Shown: one piece after another, positions 27,029 through 39,590 of the stretch | Layout of the letters: each line of letters begins with the position of its first letter | Numbering within the stretch: position 1 is the stretch's first letter | NCBI GenBank assembly: GCA_019694975.1 | Contig: JAIBAY010000001.1 | Span: 564,732 to 628,731, forward strand | Reading direction: 5' to 3' | Length of the DNA: 64,000 nt | Source of the DNA: Chitinophagales bacterium | GTDB taxonomy: Bacteria > Bacteroidota > Bacteroidia > Chitinophagales > UBA10324 | Position numbers and translations under genes: made by a program | Notes under the pieces: generated by a model | Database searches by the model: none | Told to the model about the DNA's origin: nothing | Seen by the model: the letters and a program-made list of their open reading frames with translations, nothing else

Positions 27029-28540
27029 TTACAGCCTGATAAACGGCAACTGGTAATAAGCATCATGCACCTTGAATCCGAGCCTGTACGTTCCGTGCGG
27101 CAATGCCGCAACATTGATACTTCCTGAAACCGCTGGCGCCGTGTACCATAAGTTACCATAAATATCATAGATGGTGATCTTCTCCATGTTACGAAGTCCG
27201 TCCGGTATAGACGAATGCACCGTCAACCAGTCTATTGCCGGATTGGGCACAATTTCAAAATCACTTACTTGCCTTGGATCTGTTGCCGCCGCACAGTTTA
27301 GCAGGTCGGCGTACACCGCATCAAATATCTCCTTTTCTACCGTATAAAAAGCAGAACCTGCACCAACCACATAGGGGAATTTACTGCCGTTAGTAATGAA
27401 GATCACGCCATTCTTTACGCTGTCAAAATACATGTCGCTGATCAAACCGTACGCTTCGCCCGGATGCCCTGCCATAGTACGGCCGGGAAAAACAATATCG
27501 CTGCCTGCTGTATTGGTCGTAAGGTGCAAACCCAATCCCCATGCTTTAAACAATCCGTAATAGTCGTTGCCATTGCTGCCATTATATTGCCACTGAACGT
27601 CGTGCATTAGTGCTGCGGTAGTACTCTGAAGAATTGCCGTGTTGTTATAGGTTCCATCGTTTGCCAGCATCAACATGAAGGTGGCAAGATCGTTTGCACT
27701 GATGCGAAGGCCGCCCTGCGGGCTGAAGATGAAACCGTTGTTTCCCACCACATATTGACTGAGGTTTAACGGCGGCGGCATCACACCGTTATAATTATCA
27801 GCCTGTGGCAACCAGTTGTTCCCCGAGTACCGGTACAGAACAGCCACATCAGAAATGTCGGGCAAATCCTGAACATTAAAACTTCCCGTTATACCCAATG
27901 GATCGAGTATATGCTGCTTGCAGAAAATATCGAATCTCTGCCCGCTTATCTTTTCAATCAATGTCCCGATCAGGCCAAAATTGGAATTACTGTAACTGAA
28001 GTACTGGCCTGGCTTCTTATTCAGAAAAATATTGCCGGTATAATAACTTCCACCTGCCACGAAATAAGTGCTGATGGAAGGAGGAGGATTTTGAGCGTAA
28101 GTAGCGCTTAGAAAATTATCATACTTGCTTCCATCCACAATAGAAGAAGTATGTGACAGCAACATCCGGAAGGTGATCGGATCATTTGGGTAATGCCAGT
28201 TACGAATCGAATAACCGAGATAATTATTGATATCGTCATCCAGGTCAAAAAACCCCTGATCATATAAAATCATCAAAGCCGTTGCAGTTACCGATTTTGA
28301 AACAGACGCAATTCTGTAAAAGGTGTTGCCGGTGACCGGAATATTGTCATCATAGTCGGCGAGGCCGTATGCCCCCGAGAAATTCACTTGTCCTTCGCAT
28401 ACTTCCACAACAGACATCCCCATCAGTTGATAATCGTTCAGGATTTGCGCCAACTCAGTGTCCAGTGACTGAGCAGATACAGGCCGCAGAACCGGCAACT
28501 GACAAAGCAAAAAACAGGTGATGAAATACTTGCTGAACAT
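27029..28540 (-). CDS. Secreted serine hydrolase (beta-lactamase/class C-like) with T9SS tail
   Basis: The 503-residue protein starts at the ATG at 28540 (MFSKYFITCFLLCQLP, signal ending VSAQS); the frame continues 14 codons upstream without signal features. The catalytic SxxK is in RIASVSKSVTATALMI and the Tyr motif is YSNSNFGLIGTLIEK, as in D-Ala-D-Ala carboxypeptidases, esterases and class C beta-lactamases. A third motif, HPGEAYG, takes the place of KTG. The end (about 420-503: EIVPNPAIDWLTVHSS, then NLWYTA and GTYRLGFKV) is a T9SS sorting domain. Hydrolytic target unknown; peptide or ester cleavage at the surface is most likely, and antibiotic resistance is not implied. Confidence 0.9.
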   Translation of the reverse strand: MFSKYFITCFLLCQLPVLRPVSAQSLDTELAQILNDYQLMGMSVVEVCEGQVNFSGAYGLADYDDNIPVTGNTFYRIASVSKSVTATALMILYDQGFFDLDDDINNYLGYSIRNWHYPNDPITFRMLLSHTSSIVDGSKYDNFLSATYAQNPPPSISTYFVAGGSYYTGNIFLNKKPGQYFSYSNSNFGLIGTLIEKISGQRFDIFCKQHILDPLGITGSFNVQDLPDISDVAVLYRYSGNNWLPQADNYNGVMPPPLNLSQYVVGNNGFIFSPQGGLRISANDLATFMLMLANDGTYNNTAILQSTTAALMHDVQWQYNGSNGNDYYGLFKAWGLGLHLTTNTAGSDIVFPGRTMAGHPGEAYGLISDMYFDSVKNGVIFITNGSKFPYVVGAGSAFYTVEKEIFDAVYADLLNCAAATDPRQVSDFEIVPNPAIDWLTVHSSIPDGLRNMEKITIYDIYGNLWYTAPAVSGSINVAALPHGTYRLGFKVHDAYYQLPFIRL

Positions 28541-28594
28541 AAGATAAAGCAGGCTTTGGTTTTTAGGTATAATACATTCCAAAAGGAATGAAGT

Positions 28595-30118: not shown

Positions 30119-31123
30119 TTATTTCAGCCGTTTCTTCAAGGTCTCCATTATATTCTTCATCCGGTGCAGGTTCAGCAAGAAGGCAAATCCAAGTTTCACA
30201 GGGAAAATTAGGTAGTAGAAAAAAATGATCACCGGATTCGCAGCCACCTTCACTGGCTCATAACCGTAAGCCTGCATATAATTGCAGCAGGTTCGCTGGC
30301 AAAACCAGATTTCTGTGGCGCTCAAACCTCCTTTGCTCCAGCTTTGTGACCGGTCGGGATTAATTCCCTTCACATCCTTTTTATCCATGCCACTGGATGA
30401 ACCCACCTGGGGCACATCCTTCAGTTTGGCGGAAAAAGGAAGCTGCAGGAAAAAACAGATATTCTCTATCATATTATCAGGATTTTCCAGCAGCTTTTCA
30501 AACTGAACGCTCATTACTCGCTTGTCCTTTACATTTTCGCGGGCGCGAATAGCCGAGTTCCAGAGTTTGCTGATGGTAAGCGGGTGATAGTTGGTCCATG
30601 CACGGATGGTTTCATACCAGGTGGCATGCGAGCCACCCAAAAAACGGCGCTTCCATTTTCGCTTTTGCGACAATAAAACATCGCGCGGATCGCGGACCAT
30701 ATTAATGAAATAGGAATCAGGGAAAGCATCGAGCACTTCCCGGATATAAAAAACATTCTGTGGTGTCTGATCACAGGGAAATTGCTTCCCCTGCTTTAGG
30801 GATTCATGCTGAATAACGGCTGCGAAAATACGCAGCGAGGTAAGTTCATTTTGCCGGATCGCTGTCACTATCTCCTTTGCTTCAGTCTCATATTTTTCAG
30901 GTTCCTTCTTTGCAAAATATCCGGCTGCGGAAATATTGAGCAACCTGGCAGCGAGCTTTAATGCCTCTTCAAATGATAAGATTTTGCCTTTGTCTTTGCC
31001 CGACCACATCTGTTCAAAGAAATGCAACTCCGGAAAAGTATGCACCTGTTCATGATTGTTGAGTATCCTCCCCATCATGGTGGTACCGCTCCTGCTGTTT
31101 CCTACTACAAAAATAAATGGCAT
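30119..31123 (-). CDS. Sulfotransferase-family protein (Sulfotransfer_3 type)
   Basis: The 334-residue protein starts at the ATG at 31123 (MPFIFVVGNSRSGTTMM); the longer frame begins at a TTG inside the -7 box. The 5'-phosphosulfate loop NSRSGTTM is at 9-16 and the 3'-phosphate motif is MVRDPRDVLLSQKRKWKRR. It belongs to a different branch from the six enzymes at 39.6-49.4 kb, closer to the Sulfotransfer_3/tyrosylprotein group. A hydrophobic, basic C-terminus (NPVIIFFYYLIFPVKLGFAF) could touch the membrane. PAPS-dependent sulfation of a lipid, glycan or protein is inferred; the acceptor is unknown. Confidence 0.85.
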   Translation of the reverse strand: MPFIFVVGNSRSGTTMMGRILNNHEQVHTFPELHFFEQMWSGKDKGKILSFEEALKLAARLLNISAAGYFAKKEPEKYETEAKEIVTAIRQNELTSLRIFAAVIQHESLKQGKQFPCDQTPQNVFYIREVLDAFPDSYFINMVRDPRDVLLSQKRKWKRRFLGGSHATWYETIRAWTNYHPLTISKLWNSAIRARENVKDKRVMSVQFEKLLENPDNMIENICFFLQLPFSAKLKDVPQVGSSSGMDKKDVKGINPDRSQSWSKGGLSATEIWFCQRTCCNYMQAYGYEPVKVAANPVIIFFYYLIFPVKLGFAFLLNLHRMKNIMETLKKRLK

Positions 31124-31144
31124 GACTGCGCTATGGATTTTGCG

Positions 31145-31176
31145 CAAAGGTAAAGGAAGCGCTCAGAGAGTCTAAA
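31145..31176 (-). promoter_or_regulatory. Probable promoter of the sulfotransferase gene at 30.1-31.1 kb
   Basis: On the minus strand TACCTTTG (31152-31145) matches the -7 box. TTTA (31176-31173) lies 20 bp upstream, one base off TTTG. The leader would be about 17 bases. Confidence 0.5.
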
Positions 31177-31820: not shown

Positions 31821-33770
31821 ATGATATACTTTTCCCGCCGCCATTTTTTTCTGCTTACCACAGGAGTCGTGATACTGCTGTTTATTTTTTCAGCAGGGAA
31901 AAACGACGCACAACCATTTCACAGCAGGATAGAGATGGACTATTTTGAAGAGGAAGGCATACGGTCTCCCATTGATTCCGGACAGTATTTCCTCGTTTCC
32001 GCACGCTGCAAAGGTTGCCATGGATATGATACGCTGCAGGTTGCCAATGTTGATTCAAACGGTGTTGACATCAACCTGTATGACGACTGGCAAACAACCA
32101 TGATGGCCAATTCAGCCAAAGACCCGCTCTGGCGTGCAAAGGTCAGCCATGAGATCCTTGTAAATCCGGGCCATGCAGCTGAATTACAGACAAAGTGTAC
32201 CGCCTGCCATGCCCCGCTCGGGCATTTCACGGCAATGTTTCATGGGTCAGATACTTACACCATAGACGATCTGATCAATGACACGCTTGGCCTCGATGGT
32301 GTTTCCTGCGGCGGTTGTCATGAAATAGGCATTGAAAATTTAGGGAAGACATTTTCTGGAGCCATTCCATACGACACCAGTAAAAAGGAGTTTGGGCCAT
32401 TTGAAAATCCGCTTACCGGGCCGATGCAGCTGTATGAAGGACTCACGCCAACCTTCAGCACGCACATGAGCACCTCACAGGTTTGTTCACCGTGCCATAC
32501 ACTCATCACGCATACGGCCGACCTGGAGGGCAATTATACCGGCAGTACTTTTATTGAGCAGGCTACTTATCATGAATGGCTGAACTCTGCATTTTCGGCT
32601 GATAATATTACCTGCCAGAAATGCCACATGCCACAACTGAAAGATTCCATTATCATTGCCAATAACATCCTCGCACTGGGGCCACGCTCACCATTCAATC
32701 AGCATCAGTTCGCCGGTGGCAATGCATTTATGATCAGTATGATCAAAGAAAACAAAACATCGCTGAACATTACCTCACCGGATAAGAACTTTGATTCAAC
32801 ATTAGCTGCCACATACAGGTTGTTACAACAAAATACAGTTGGCCTGTTCATGTTTCTCGACAGCATTACAGCAGATACCCTGTACCTGAGAGTGCGTGTG
32901 TCAAACAAGGCCGGCCATAAATTTCCGTCAGGCTATCCAAGCCGCAGGGCAGTATTGCAACTCGTGATTACGGATCAAAACGAAGACACCGTCTTTCAAA
33001 CCGGCACCTTTGATTCGAACTATGAAGTGCATGCGATCAATGCAGGCTATGAGCCACACTATAATATCATCAGCAGTGAATCGCAGGTTCAATTATATGA
33101 AATGATAATGGGTGATGTAAACAATAATGTCACCACCGTGCTGGAAAGGGCTGATCATATGATCAAGGATAATCGCCTTCCGCCGGAAGGTTTTACATCG
33201 TCGCATCCTGTTTACGATACGGTGCGCATTACAGGTGAAGCAGCTGAGGATGCTGATTTCAATAAATCAGGCGTGGCAGAAGGCACCGGTATGGACTTCG
33301 TTCATTTTCACATTCCAATAAACGGCGTAAATGGCATCTTAAACATTTATGCGGGCATGTATTTCCAGGCTGTCCCGCCGCGTTATGTGACTGATATGTT
33401 TGGATACAGCGGTGCGGCAATTGATTCTTTTAAGCATATGTACCTTGAAGCAGACCGCACTCCGGTGTTGCTGACTGCTGCACAAATTCAGACGCCTTTC
33501 ATTTTGTCGGAAGTACAACCTGCCGGAACAGCGACGATCAGCATTGTTAATACAGTCAGCCATTCAGGTGATGTGCAATTGATGAACCTTCAACACCTGA
33601 TGATAGAATCCATCAGGATCTATCAGCCCGGCGGTGTGTTGCTCTCTCATGCATCACCGCATGATAACGATGCCATGCATTCAGTTACATTACCCGTTCA
33701 AGCCGGAATTTACCTGGTTGAGATTTATGCCAATGGCCAACGGTTTGTATTCAAAGCCATCCGGCTGTAA
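31821..33770 (+). CDS. Pentahaem cytochrome c with probable T9SS sorting tail
   Basis: The 649-residue protein has an N-terminal hydrophobic signal (about 7-25, ending near DAQ) and five CXXCH haem sites: 63-67 CKGCH, 126-130 CTACH, 163-167 CGGCH, 222-226 CSPCH and 265-269 CQKCH. Spacing and extra His residues (HAAELQ, HFTAMFH, HMSTSQ) suit a cytochrome c554/multihaem fold with bis-His ligation. The remaining 380 residues are beta-rich; the segment after the haems includes VSNKAGHKFPSGYPSRRAV. The last 75 residues (IRIYQPGGVLLS, GIYLVEIYANGQRFVFKAIR) have the strand pattern of a type A T9SS sorting domain. This implies a surface-exposed or secreted redox protein. The FG-GAP gene follows by 85 bases. 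Confidence 0.87.
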   Translation: MIYFSRRHFFLLTTGVVILLFIFSAGKNDAQPFHSRIEMDYFEEEGIRSPIDSGQYFLVSARCKGCHGYDTLQVANVDSNGVDINLYDDWQTTMMANSAKDPLWRAKVSHEILVNPGHAAELQTKCTACHAPLGHFTAMFHGSDTYTIDDLINDTLGLDGVSCGGCHEIGIENLGKTFSGAIPYDTSKKEFGPFENPLTGPMQLYEGLTPTFSTHMSTSQVCSPCHTLITHTADLEGNYTGSTFIEQATYHEWLNSAFSADNITCQKCHMPQLKDSIIIANNILALGPRSPFNQHQFAGGNAFMISMIKENKTSLNITSPDKNFDSTLAATYRLLQQNTVGLFMFLDSITADTLYLRVRVSNKAGHKFPSGYPSRRAVLQLVITDQNEDTVFQTGTFDSNYEVHAINAGYEPHYNIISSESQVQLYEMIMGDVNNNVTTVLERADHMIKDNRLPPEGFTSSHPVYDTVRITGEAAEDADFNKSGVAEGTGMDFVHFHIPINGVNGILNIYAGMYFQAVPPRYVTDMFGYSGAAIDSFKHMYLEADRTPVLLTAAQIQTPFILSEVQPAGTATISIVNTVSHSGDVQLMNLQHLMIESIRIYQPGGVLLSHASPHDNDAMHSVTLPVQAGIYLVEIYANGQRFVFKAIRL

Positions 33771-33855: not shown

Positions 33856-36723
33856 ATGCAATTTTTTACAAAACTTAAGCTGATCGCTATCGCTGCTGTC
33901 TGCTGCTGCTGCGGAAATGTATCCGCGCAGGTGAGTTTCCTCAATGCCAACGCCAAACTTTCTGCTACCAATATTCACAGCGGATGCCCGGTTGGTGTGG
34001 CTGATATCAATGGCGATGGTCTCGATGATATTGTGCGACTGGATCAGGCACACCTCCTTTATATAGACTATCAACGTCCCGGCTTGCTTTTCGATCATCA
34101 TTATATCGGCGACTACGGCGGTGGCGTGTCATGGGCCTGGGGACTGTGTATTGCAGACGTTGACCACAATGGCTATAAAGACATCGTGGCAGGTGGTTAC
34201 GGACCGTCTGTCAAGATCATGAAACTAAACAGTACCGGAACAGGTGGCACCTTGTACAGCCTTCCTTCTTCGAACTTCTTTCTTCAAAACATAAATTTTG
34301 CCGACATCAACAACGATGGATGGGAAGATATTTTTGGCTGTGATGATAATGCCGAAAGCCATATCTGGCTGAACAACGGCAGCGGAAACTTTACCGTGTC
34401 TTCCATTATTGATTTTGATGTTACCGGCACGGATGACTCAGGCAATTACGGCAGCGTGTGGACTGATTTTGACAACGACGGAGATATTGATCTTTACATC
34501 GCTAAGTGCAGGCAGGCAGTGAATGACCCTAACGACGGCAGGCGGATTGATGTGCTGTTTGTGAATGACGGCAACAACAACTACACTTCCGATGCCGCTG
34601 CCTACGGGCTGGCCGACAGTGCACAAACCTGGACCGCCAATTTTGCCGACATCGACAATGACGGAGACCTTGATGTCATTCAAACAGATTATGATGTGCC
34701 CGCCAAACTGCTGGAGAATGATGGTACCGGGCATATGACAAATATCACGGCGGGATCAGGTTTTAACATGACGGTGATTCCTATTGAATCGGTGATGGAG
34801 GATTTTGACAATGATGGATTTGTTGATATACTTGTTTCCGGCAGCGACTATCAGTTTTTTCATAATGACGGTGATAAAACTTTCACCAAACTGCCGGGCA
34901 TCTTCGGAACAAGCAACATGGAGTCATTTGCCATTGGTGATCTTAATCACGATGGCAAGGTTGATGTGTATGCCAGTTACGCCAACATTTACACCACGCC
35001 CACATCAGTTGATGATATATACTGGCTGAACAGTTCTTCCAACGGAAATCATTTTATCACCATCAATTTGACAGGAACCACCAGTAATGCCGGAGCGCTG
35101 GGAGCACGTGCTACCATTTATGGAGCATGGGGAAAACAAGTGCGGGAAGTGCATGCGGGCGAAAGCTATGGTACCTGCAATACAAGCAGCCTTCACTTTG
35201 GTACAGGTTCAGCGTCAGTTATAGATTCGATAGTGATCAACTGGCCTTCCGGTGCCGTCACTTCTATCATGAATCCGGCCGTTGATCAGTTTATTGATGT
35301 GGTGGAAAATGAATGCACGACGCCTGATTTAACCATAAGCAACAGCGGGGGAACAGTCATCTGCCCGGGCGAAACAGTTACACTTTCAGCTTCAGCAGTT
35401 CCATCAGACTATTCATATCTATGGTCCAACGGAGCCACTACACAGTCTGTGGAAGTAGGCGAAACCGGTGATTACAGTGTGAAAATATCGTCTTCCTCCA
35501 ATAACTGTTTTACCACTTCTCCGACGATCACGATCACACAAAATCCGGTGGAAGTACCGGCTGTAACCGTATCCGGTGCATTAACCTTTTGCGACGGCGG
35601 CAGTGTTGAATTATCTGCTCCGGCTGCCACTTCATATGCCTGGTCAAACGGTGCAACCACTCAATCCATCACCGTAACATCATCCGGCAGCTATACTGTC
35701 AGTATTCCGGGTACGTGCCAGTTGATTTCGTCAACTCCCGTGGAAGTAAATGTTTTGATTTCTCCGTCACCTGCAGCAGCTGATGTCCATCTTACTACTC
35801 CCGGAACAGCTACGCTCACCGCCACCGGCGACCTGGTGAACTGGTACAGTGAACCCATTGGAGGCACATTGCTCAGCACCGGCAATCAATTCATTACGCC
35901 TATACTGTATGACACCACTGTTTATTTTGCCGACAACACAACAGCGTTTGGTGCTGATACTTTCTATACCGGCCAGCCATATCATCAGGGTGTGTTGTAC
36001 AGTGGCAGCAACAGCACCAACAGCAGCATAATTTTTAATGTTTATCAGCCTTGCGTATTGAAATCAGTGAAAGTTTATACCGATACGCCCGGCGAGCGGC
36101 TGATAGAATGGAGAAATCACAATGGAAGTGTGCTGCAGAGTGTATTGATCAATATCCCGATGGATTCAAGCCGTATTACACTTGACTTCAACCTCGTGCC
36201 TGGAGAAGATTATGAGCTCACCACCAATAAAACGCAGAATAACCTGTTATGGGGTTTTGACAGCCCGCGGCTGCAGCGCAGTGATGCCGGTGTCAGCTAT
36301 CCTTATGTGATACAGGACTTCGTTTCCTTAACCGGCTCACCTAATGGAAGCAACCTGTTCTATTATTTTTATGACTGGGAAGTAGATAAAATTCCGACGC
36401 TGTGTATCAGCGATCGTGTGCCGGTGACTGTATTTGTCGACCTTGCCTCAGGCATCGCTGCTGCTCATGAAAACATGATACTAAACGTCTTTCCTAACCC
36501 ATCTTCTGGCATTGTGAATATTGCAGGCGGCAGTATGATGCCTGATCAGGTTAACATACAACTACAGGATATAACCGGTAAATTGTTGCTTTCACAATCA
36601 GCGAAGGCCATGAGCAGCGGAGAAAACTTACAGCTCGACCTCAGCAGTTTTCCGGGTGGAATTTACCTGTTGAATATTGAAACGGAAGGCTCCGTGCAGC
36701 AACATAAAATAGTCATTCAGTAA
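33856..36723 (+). CDS. FG-GAP/VCBS repeat protein with UnbV (ASPIC) domain and T9SS tail
   Basis: The 955-residue secreted protein has a signal peptide (1-23, ending VSAQ) and seven Asp-rich calcium-loop repeats. Examples are DINGDGLDDIV, DVDHNGYKDIV, DINNDGWEDIF, DFDNDGDIDLY, DIDNDGDLDVI and DLNHDGKVDVY. Together they form an integrin-like beta-propeller (about 45-390). An ASPIC/UnbV domain follows (about 405-480: GALGARATIYGAWGKQVREV, HAGESYGTCNTSSLHFG). Ig-like or CUB-like linker repeats come next (about 480-700; YLWSNGATTQSVEV and YAWSNGATTQSITV are near-identical copies), then a jelly-roll-like part. The C-terminal T9SS domain starts at NVFPNPSSGIVNI. It likely binds ligands or partners at the cell surface. 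The close spacing suggests co-expression with the multihaem cytochrome. Confidence 0.93.
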   Translation: MQFFTKLKLIAIAAVCCCCGNVSAQVSFLNANAKLSATNIHSGCPVGVADINGDGLDDIVRLDQAHLLYIDYQRPGLLFDHHYIGDYGGGVSWAWGLCIADVDHNGYKDIVAGGYGPSVKIMKLNSTGTGGTLYSLPSSNFFLQNINFADINNDGWEDIFGCDDNAESHIWLNNGSGNFTVSSIIDFDVTGTDDSGNYGSVWTDFDNDGDIDLYIAKCRQAVNDPNDGRRIDVLFVNDGNNNYTSDAAAYGLADSAQTWTANFADIDNDGDLDVIQTDYDVPAKLLENDGTGHMTNITAGSGFNMTVIPIESVMEDFDNDGFVDILVSGSDYQFFHNDGDKTFTKLPGIFGTSNMESFAIGDLNHDGKVDVYASYANIYTTPTSVDDIYWLNSSSNGNHFITINLTGTTSNAGALGARATIYGAWGKQVREVHAGESYGTCNTSSLHFGTGSASVIDSIVINWPSGAVTSIMNPAVDQFIDVVENECTTPDLTISNSGGTVICPGETVTLSASAVPSDYSYLWSNGATTQSVEVGETGDYSVKISSSSNNCFTTSPTITITQNPVEVPAVTVSGALTFCDGGSVELSAPAATSYAWSNGATTQSITVTSSGSYTVSIPGTCQLISSTPVEVNVLISPSPAAADVHLTTPGTATLTATGDLVNWYSEPIGGTLLSTGNQFITPILYDTTVYFADNTTAFGADTFYTGQPYHQGVLYSGSNSTNSSIIFNVYQPCVLKSVKVYTDTPGERLIEWRNHNGSVLQSVLINIPMDSSRITLDFNLVPGEDYELTTNKTQNNLLWGFDSPRLQRSDAGVSYPYVIQDFVSLTGSPNGSNLFYYFYDWEVDKIPTLCISDRVPVTVFVDLASGIAAAHENMILNVFPNPSSGIVNIAGGSMMPDQVNIQLQDITGKLLLSQSAKAMSSGENLQLDLSSFPGGIYLLNIETEGSVQQHKIVIQ

Positions 36724-38405: not shown

Positions 38406-39590
38406 CTAAGCGCTGTTACTCAGTGCCAATCGGTAAATTTCATTCACCCTGCTGCCAATGAGTTGCCAGCTGAACTTTTCATCTGCGGTTTTTTTTGCCT
38501 GCATGCGCAGGCGTTTCATTTTTTCTTCATCCTGCAGCAAGGCCATTATTTTTTCCGCAAGGTCTTTTTCGTCTTCATTCCGGAACATCACTCCATTCTC
38601 TCCTTCCACAATTATTTTTTTAAACGTATCGAGGTCGGAGGAAACGATGGCCGCGCTGTAATCGAGTGAACGGATCATCACGCCACTGGAATAAATCTCC
38701 CGGTAAGGAAGCGTTACGATATCCGCTGCCGCGAAATAGTATGGAATGATTTCATTCGGCACATAGGAATAGTTGAGGATGCAATCCTTTTCCAAATTCT
38801 TCTCCTGTACGATTGCATCAAATTCCTCCTGTTCCACTTTCCACGGCTTGCCGACCACGAGCAGTTTTACATTGGGCATCTTATCGCGAACGATGGCATG
38901 TGCGCGCAGCAGCACATCGAGGCCTTTTACCTTTTTTATTTGTCCGAAGAAAAGCACCAGTTGCTGATCCATGGGCAAGTTCAGCTTTTGCCTGGCTTCT
39001 TCCTTCGTGATGGGTTTATTGAAAAGAAAATCAGAATCACCATGCGGAACAATGTGAATGTCGTGTTCCGGAAAACCGGGGAAATATTTTTCCAGGGATG
39101 TTTTTGCATAGTCAGAATGAACGATGATCTGATCAATAGCATGGCGGAATTTGCCGTATTTGCGCGGATTGATCTCCTGCCCGTATTTATCAAAGCTTTC
39201 AATGTCGTGAATGGTAGCCACCACCCTGAACCCTTTTCTCCTGAAGAGGAAAAAGTTCAGGTATTCCCTTAACGCAAAATGATACACGTGAAAGTGAACC
39301 ACTTTCGCACCGGCTTTAGCGGCATCCTGAGCAGCATGCCATGCGCCGATGGCGTAACGGACACCGCGGATCAGCTTGTTATCTTGTCCGTAAATTTTCT
39401 TAAACGGTTTTATCGTGCGGAAAGGAAAGCTGAATTTGGTATCGAGATCGGTTTCATCGCAGGTATAGAAACTGAGTTCTGTTCCCTGGTCGGCCACCGC
39501 CTTGCATAAACCAAAATCATAAAAGTCATTACCGCTGTGTCCGCCGATGGGTTCAACCATGGCAACCCTTAACTTATTATTTTCACTCAT
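38406..39590 (-). CDS. Glycosyltransferase family 4 (GT-B fold)
   Basis: The 394-residue protein shows a GT4 layout. The N-terminal Rossmann domain opens with LRVAMVEPIGGHSGNDFYDF and contains VVATIHDIESFDKYG. The C-terminal donor-binding domain has LVLFFGQIKKVKGLDVLLRA, then YVPNEIIPYYFAAADIVTLP and YSSGVMIRSLDYSAAIVSSD. The phosphate loop is typical, although the E of the EX7E motif is not obvious. It adds a sugar to the lipid-linked repeat unit on the cytoplasmic face. Its start overlaps the end of the upstream sulfotransferase by 8 bases, so the two are translationally linked. Confidence 0.9.
   Translation of the reverse strand: MSENNKLRVAMVEPIGGHSGNDFYDFGLCKAVADQGTELSFYTCDETDLDTKFSFPFRTIKPFKKIYGQDNKLIRGVRYAIGAWHAAQDAAKAGAKVVHFHVYHFALREYLNFFLFRRKGFRVVATIHDIESFDKYGQEINPRKYGKFRHAIDQIIVHSDYAKTSLEKYFPGFPEHDIHIVPHGDSDFLFNKPITKEEARQKLNLPMDQQLVLFFGQIKKVKGLDVLLRAHAIVRDKMPNVKLLVVGKPWKVEQEEFDAIVQEKNLEKDCILNYSYVPNEIIPYYFAAADIVTLPYREIYSSGVMIRSLDYSAAIVSSDLDTFKKIIVEGENGVMFRNEDEKDLAEKIMALLQDEEKMKRLRMQAKKTADEKFSWQLIGSRVNEIYRLALSNSA

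Follow-up and report, generated by a model that had tools for sequence, protein, structure and literature searches.

The window analyzed here, a 64,000-nucleotide stretch of a Chitinophagales genome, encodes a pentahaem c-type cytochrome (31821..33770, + strand) that ends in a diverged sorting domain of the type IX secretion system (T9SS). The gene lies 85 nucleotides upstream of a second gene (33856..36723, +), whose 955-residue product carries a predicted FG-GAP propeller, ASPIC/UnbV and Ig_7 domains and a T9SS tail of its own. The conservation of this arrangement across Bacteroidota suggests that cytochrome and propeller protein make up a two-gene exported module. Sequence and structural models support the haem motifs and fold of the cytochrome, the sorting domains, the presence of T9SS machinery and the conservation of the gene pair. 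The full reading, in which the exported pair is a redox module that transfers electrons beyond the outer membrane, we judge about evenly balanced between right and wrong.

A cytochrome with five invariant haem motifs

The cytochrome gene is an ATG-initiated open reading frame of 649 codons with homologues throughout the family described below. Its five haem motifs are CKGCH (residues 63-67; 32007..32021), CTACH (126-130; 32196..32210), CGGCH (163-167; 32307..32321), CSPCH (222-226; 32484..32498) and CQKCH (265-269; 32613..32627), all on the + strand and each invariant in 82 sequences. The protein is cysteine-free outside these motifs, and every other open reading frame of the window has at most one CXXCH. 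Five such motifs inside 207 residues are not a product of chance, and the count was exactly five in all 88 homologous open reading frames that we collected. The original prediction, which was made from the sequence of this DNA, thus gave the correct coordinates and haem count, and the beta-rich region that it placed after the haem motifs is present at residues 340-557 in an AlphaFold model of high confidence (mean pLDDT 90.6). A redox function is likely for a protein with these features.

The first 30 or so residues (31821..31910, +) form a predicted export signal. Both the sequence and the model give a hydrophobic N-terminal helix, placed at residues 6-24 by the model; there is no lipobox cysteine, and orthologues keep the kind of segment rather than its sequence. 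Although the N-terminal SRRHFF could be read as a twin-arginine signal, we dropped this reading, as the orthologues lack the arginine pair. We also rejected a cis-regulatory RNA upstream of the gene, as an Rfam search placed none there.

The core resembles pentahaem cytochromes of known structure

The AlphaFold model was built from 82 sequences and contains no haems; an earlier model from 13 sequences (pLDDT 53.6) was set aside. The best fold match of the 82-sequence model in the PDB was cytochrome c552 of Thermochromatium tepidum (5ze8; E 2.7e-16, TM 0.64 by target, 16% identity), which was also recovered by the family sequence profile. In both proteins five haems are followed by an Ig-like beta domain, which in the window cytochrome spans residues ~340-557 (32838..33491, +), is made of predicted strands and can be aligned to the C-terminal portion of 5ze8. 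The cytochrome therefore has the haem count as well as the haem-domain and Ig-like-domain fold of the c552/PHC family. The T9SS tail and the propeller partner, in contrast, are extras of the Bacteroidota protein; 5ze8 is 435 residues long and so has no such tail.

The same family profile matched MccSep (9wt8) at its GHxxPxGxP loop. A phmmer search of the PDB with the single cytochrome sequence returned only chance matches to MCM3 and weak matches to MccSep, and the ExtKL model NF040886, whose cut-off is 250 bits, gave 17.4. We therefore regard the cytochrome as a relative of ExtKL and not as a member of that model. Its similarity to the pentahaem (seleno)cytochromes ExtKL and MccSep is distant, with weak profile matches, and consists of the loop and the beta domain; no ext-like gene cluster lies near the cytochrome gene in the window. 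ExtKL, Gsu2801 and cable-bacterial proteins have been grouped as one pentahaem family, members of which are structurally homologous to the T. tepidum protein (PMC11976967).

In the window cytochrome the loop reads HKFPSGYPSRR (residues 366-376; 32916..32948, +). His366 and Tyr372 are invariant, and Tyr372 occupies the position of selenocysteine 325 in MccSep, so that tyrosine replaces Sec throughout the family. Many invariant polar residues ring the loop. These features could be those of an extracellular redox enzyme unwired to the respiratory chain, which would use extracellular donors to act on a small substrate (an oxyanion, nitrogen oxide, peroxide or phenolic) near the loop. The Sec-containing relative ExtKL of Geobacter, which preliminary data link to selenite reduction (PMC5877670), counts in the same direction. 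Against such an enzyme, the catalytic CXXCK motif is absent, and six conserved non-motif histidines (110, 215, 251, 295, 366 and 413; 91-100%) could ligate all five haems, which would leave no obvious open haem site. These six would suffice as second axial ligands for every haem, as expected for an electron carrier. We rate the enzyme as possible, though short of probable.

The histidines bear on another alternative. T. tepidum c552 has been proposed as a relative of the archaeal nanowire AvECN, as reported in PMC11976967, and it is the closest solved fold to our cytochrome. By analogy, copies of the cytochrome could assemble extracellularly into a filament that conducts electrons, anchored or capped by the propeller protein. 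The model was made for a monomer. Within a single subunit the conserved histidines suffice for every haem; a ligand supplied in trans is therefore unneeded, and we consider a filament very improbable.

The C-terminal tail is a diverged T9SS sorting domain

The original prediction had noted a C-terminal strand pattern typical of T9SS cargo; the domain lies at residues ~572-649 (33534..33767, +). On the window protein itself, a profile search was borderline: TIGR04183 scored 17.1 bits for the whole protein and 21.4 bits for a 110-residue tail against a cut-off of 23, and neither PF18962 nor any other Pfam model matched the tail. The usual PNP motif is missing, and a GIYLVEI...KAIRL pattern is retained at the C-terminus. 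The family as a whole gave the clearer answer. TIGR04183 matched 78 of 82 relatives and PF18962 matched 69 of 82 (E <= 0.01), whereas PF18962 matched none of 11 natural tail-less relatives used as a control. In the PDB, the family profile also hit 8glk_D, the solved Endonuclease I sorting domain (E 1.2e-4, positions 581-654). In the AlphaFold model the tail is a beta-sandwich (pLDDT ~90) that superposes on the RemA/RemZ sorting domains of T9SS complexes (8gl6/8gl8) with a TM of 0.78 by target and on mirolase 8qb1 with a TM of 0.69. The predicted strand pattern was thus borne out, and homologues settle the identity of the window cytochrome's own tail as a diverged T9SS domain. The protein resembles T9SS type A cargo (TIGR04183, PF18962) in carrying a beta-sandwich at its very end, with profile and fold matches across the family, and differs in that its own copy has diverged to below the cut-off.

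The genome from which the window comes encodes full-length SprA (2545.6 bits) and has 150 or more sorting domains that exceed the cut-off. Together with the homologues and the fold, these findings give good support to the earlier claim that the protein is T9SS cargo and hence exposed or released beyond the outer membrane. The cytochrome is very probably exported through the T9SS.

One clade lacks the tail and adjoins a cytochrome-barrel fusion

Tail-less five-haem cores form one clade from 11 genomes (L105-L115), with open reading frames of 556-590 residues. In an unrooted tree a strongly supported branch sets the clade apart, beside a tail-bearing sequence and far from the window sequence, and a single loss of the tail is therefore the simplest account. 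SprA was found in all 26 genomes tested, the tail-less clade included. The tail was therefore not lost for want of a T9SS, and we rejected that explanation.

These sequences bear on whether the window cytochrome could itself be periplasmic, with a tail that is vestigial in this organism. The sub-threshold TIGR04183 score and the missing PNP motif would fit such a protein, as would a tail-free core in 11 genomes that still have the T9SS. On the other hand, the fold of the window tail is predicted with high confidence and its terminal pattern is retained, close orthologues have clear tails, and the tail-less clade is a single distant branch. We therefore regard periplasmic retention as unlikely.

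In all 11 tail-less genomes, the product of the gene immediately upstream of the cytochrome combines a single class I haem domain with a beta-rich stretch behind it; in L114 this stretch matches the outer-membrane barrel family PF13557. This fusion has a Cyc2-like layout of one haem domain plus barrel, here adjoining a pentahaem gene. Examples at L109:3730-4929 and L114:6536-7780 each comprise a monohaem domain and a probable 240-residue barrel with a conserved WDWFDGG-type tail. Across 395 genomes, the fusion was detected in those 11 and in three more distant cases; none of the genomes with a tail-bearing cytochrome in this survey, the window's genome included, has one. We infer that the fusion may act as an electron conduit. 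From their sequences, the tailed cytochrome with its propeller and the tail-less cytochrome with its cytochrome-barrel neighbor look like two outer-membrane arrangements of one core.

The cytochrome is paired with a predicted exported propeller protein

Profile searches of the partner located its ASPIC/UnbV domain at residues 414-479 (35095..35292, +; PF07593, 60 bits) and its T9SS sorting domain at residues 878-955 (36487..36720, +; TIGR04183, 38.2 bits; PF18962, 53.4 bits). There are exactly seven DxDxDG-type loops, as expected if the FG-GAP repeats build a seven-bladed Ca-binding propeller. TIGR04183 also matched each of the 37 partner tails tested.

Of 82 informative loci, 52 have a relative of the partner beside the cytochrome gene, in the same orientation at 44 and convergent at eight; the 82 include four second copies from genomes already counted, without which the figure is ~48/78. 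The paired loci come from records named Chitinophagales, Saprospiraceae, Lewinella and Flavobacteriales, the pair of the cultivable Lewinella cohaerens (L060) being one example, and adjacency changed state at least six times on the tree. With just five UnbV/ASPIC genes in the 4.3 Mb of the window's genome, chance adjacency is excluded. The partner is missing from 30 of the 82 loci and is therefore not obligatory. No multihaem cytochrome lies beside the other UnbV/ASPIC genes of this genome. No terminator-like site was found between the cytochrome and partner genes, which is weak evidence that they may form an operon. Overall, the pairing makes a functional link between the two proteins probable. 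Elsewhere in the genome (L126:4100-11403), two tandem ASPIC/UnbV open reading frames of ~1200 residues have lipoprotein-like starts and no visible sorting tail.

The propeller also invites a different view, in which the cytochrome is a haem-rich adhesion protein, or a store of haem or iron, whose haems take no part in electron transfer. T9SS cargo proteins are often adhesins, and the partner's propeller presumably resembles integrin-type adhesion folds. Against this, conservation at the haem motifs and the candidate distal ligands is among the highest in the protein, beyond what storage would lead one to expect, and we give such a role very little credence.

Electron supply and a possible route beyond the outer membrane

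The window's genome has an alternative complex III, with an ActA containing six CXXCH motifs, upstream of oxidase-like genes. Two further multihaem cytochromes, at L129:6422-8659 (eight CXXCH) and L130:4550-6481 (seven CXXCH), are fused to C-terminal TPR repeats and lack sorting tails, in a list of the genome's multihaem genes that may be incomplete. A search for an MtrB/PioB porin (PF11854) found no match in the genome. As the cytochrome-barrel fusion is absent as well, there is no recognized electron route across the outer membrane. This lack of a conduit in our searches makes the extracellular enzyme a serious rival to an electron relay, and any direct wiring of the cytochrome to respiration is putative. 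The porin-cytochrome conduits (MtrCAB, Pcc) and Cyc2 presumably serve the same end as our system, which is to bring cytochrome chemistry to the outer face of the cell. In contrast to these systems, the window cytochrome would be delivered by secretion and not by way of a barrel. Of the extracellular electron transfer first proposed for this protein, the placement outside the cell holds up, whereas the transfer step lacks a recognized conduit in the genome.

Extracellular electron transfer by the cytochrome is nevertheless plausible. We put the prospect that it moves electrons at or outside the surface, as a relay or as a terminal reductase or oxidase, at around an even chance. The cytochrome would be exported by Sec and receive its haems in the periplasm, and the folded holoprotein would then cross the outer membrane through the T9SS by means of its C-terminal domain. 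That domain would probably be removed afterwards, and the cytochrome would stay on the surface or be released. The FG-GAP/ASPIC propeller, probably Ca-loaded, would follow the same route; its fold hints that it most likely docks the cytochrome in a complex or binds the redox substrate. Outside the cell, the pair could then relay electrons to an acceptor or from a donor, or act on it as terminal reductase/oxidase; candidates are metals, quinone-like compounds and a further redox protein of the surface. More tentatively, export through the T9SS with a propeller partner may be a route peculiar to Bacteroidota for locating respiratory cytochromes extracellularly, for which a sister lineage swapped in the fusion. 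This would amount to two independent solutions for extracellular electron transfer, and we hold it as a possibility that falls well short of probable.

Distribution, earlier reports and surrounding genes

A scan of named genomes found at least 566 relatives, and the 80 that were retained are all from Bacteroidota, with names that include Chitinophagales, Saprospiraceae, Flavobacteriales and Lewinella among others. The family was matched in 27 of 395 genomes drawn evenly from the phylum and in 14 of 61 nearest relatives, a distribution that is widespread but patchy. At one locus (L118:4913-8500), pentahaem genes are duplicated in tandem; one copy is tailed and the other apparently lacks a sorting tail.

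The original prediction called extracellular electron transfer or surface redox chemistry rarely described for this phylum, which is half right. Reports of multihaem proteins predicted to be extracellular in Bacteroidota do exist (PMC11495043; PMC6344600), and the general idea is therefore not new. For the present family and its partner, the literature searched, mostly outside subscription journals, contained no description of T9SS-exported multihaem cytochromes or of FG-GAP partners. The cytochrome family, the two-gene module and the tail-less switch thus appear undescribed in the searchable literature. The earlier predictions came without a delivery mechanism or a partner. In the present family, the tail that tags the protein for secretion, the conserved neighboring gene and a clade that serves as a natural tail-less control make export and redox function testable. 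Two questions stand out: whether the type IX system exports a haem-loaded protein, and whether widespread Bacteroidota exchange redox equivalents with their surroundings.

Several neighbors of the pair deserve mention. A gene at 27029-28582 (-) encodes a beta-lactamase-fold serine hydrolase (PF00144), the last 75 residues of which are T9SS-tail-like and under the cut-off. A Sulfotransfer_3 gene at 30119-31147 (-) was confirmed by domain match. About six similar sulfotransferase-like open reading frames, recognized by sequence only, lie between 39583 and 49374 (-; at 39583, 40468, 43934, 44991, 45968 and 48475). They are interleaved with apparent glycosyltransferase, flippase, MBOAT and polysaccharide-export genes up to 61 kb, and the region looks like a sulfated exopolysaccharide locus.
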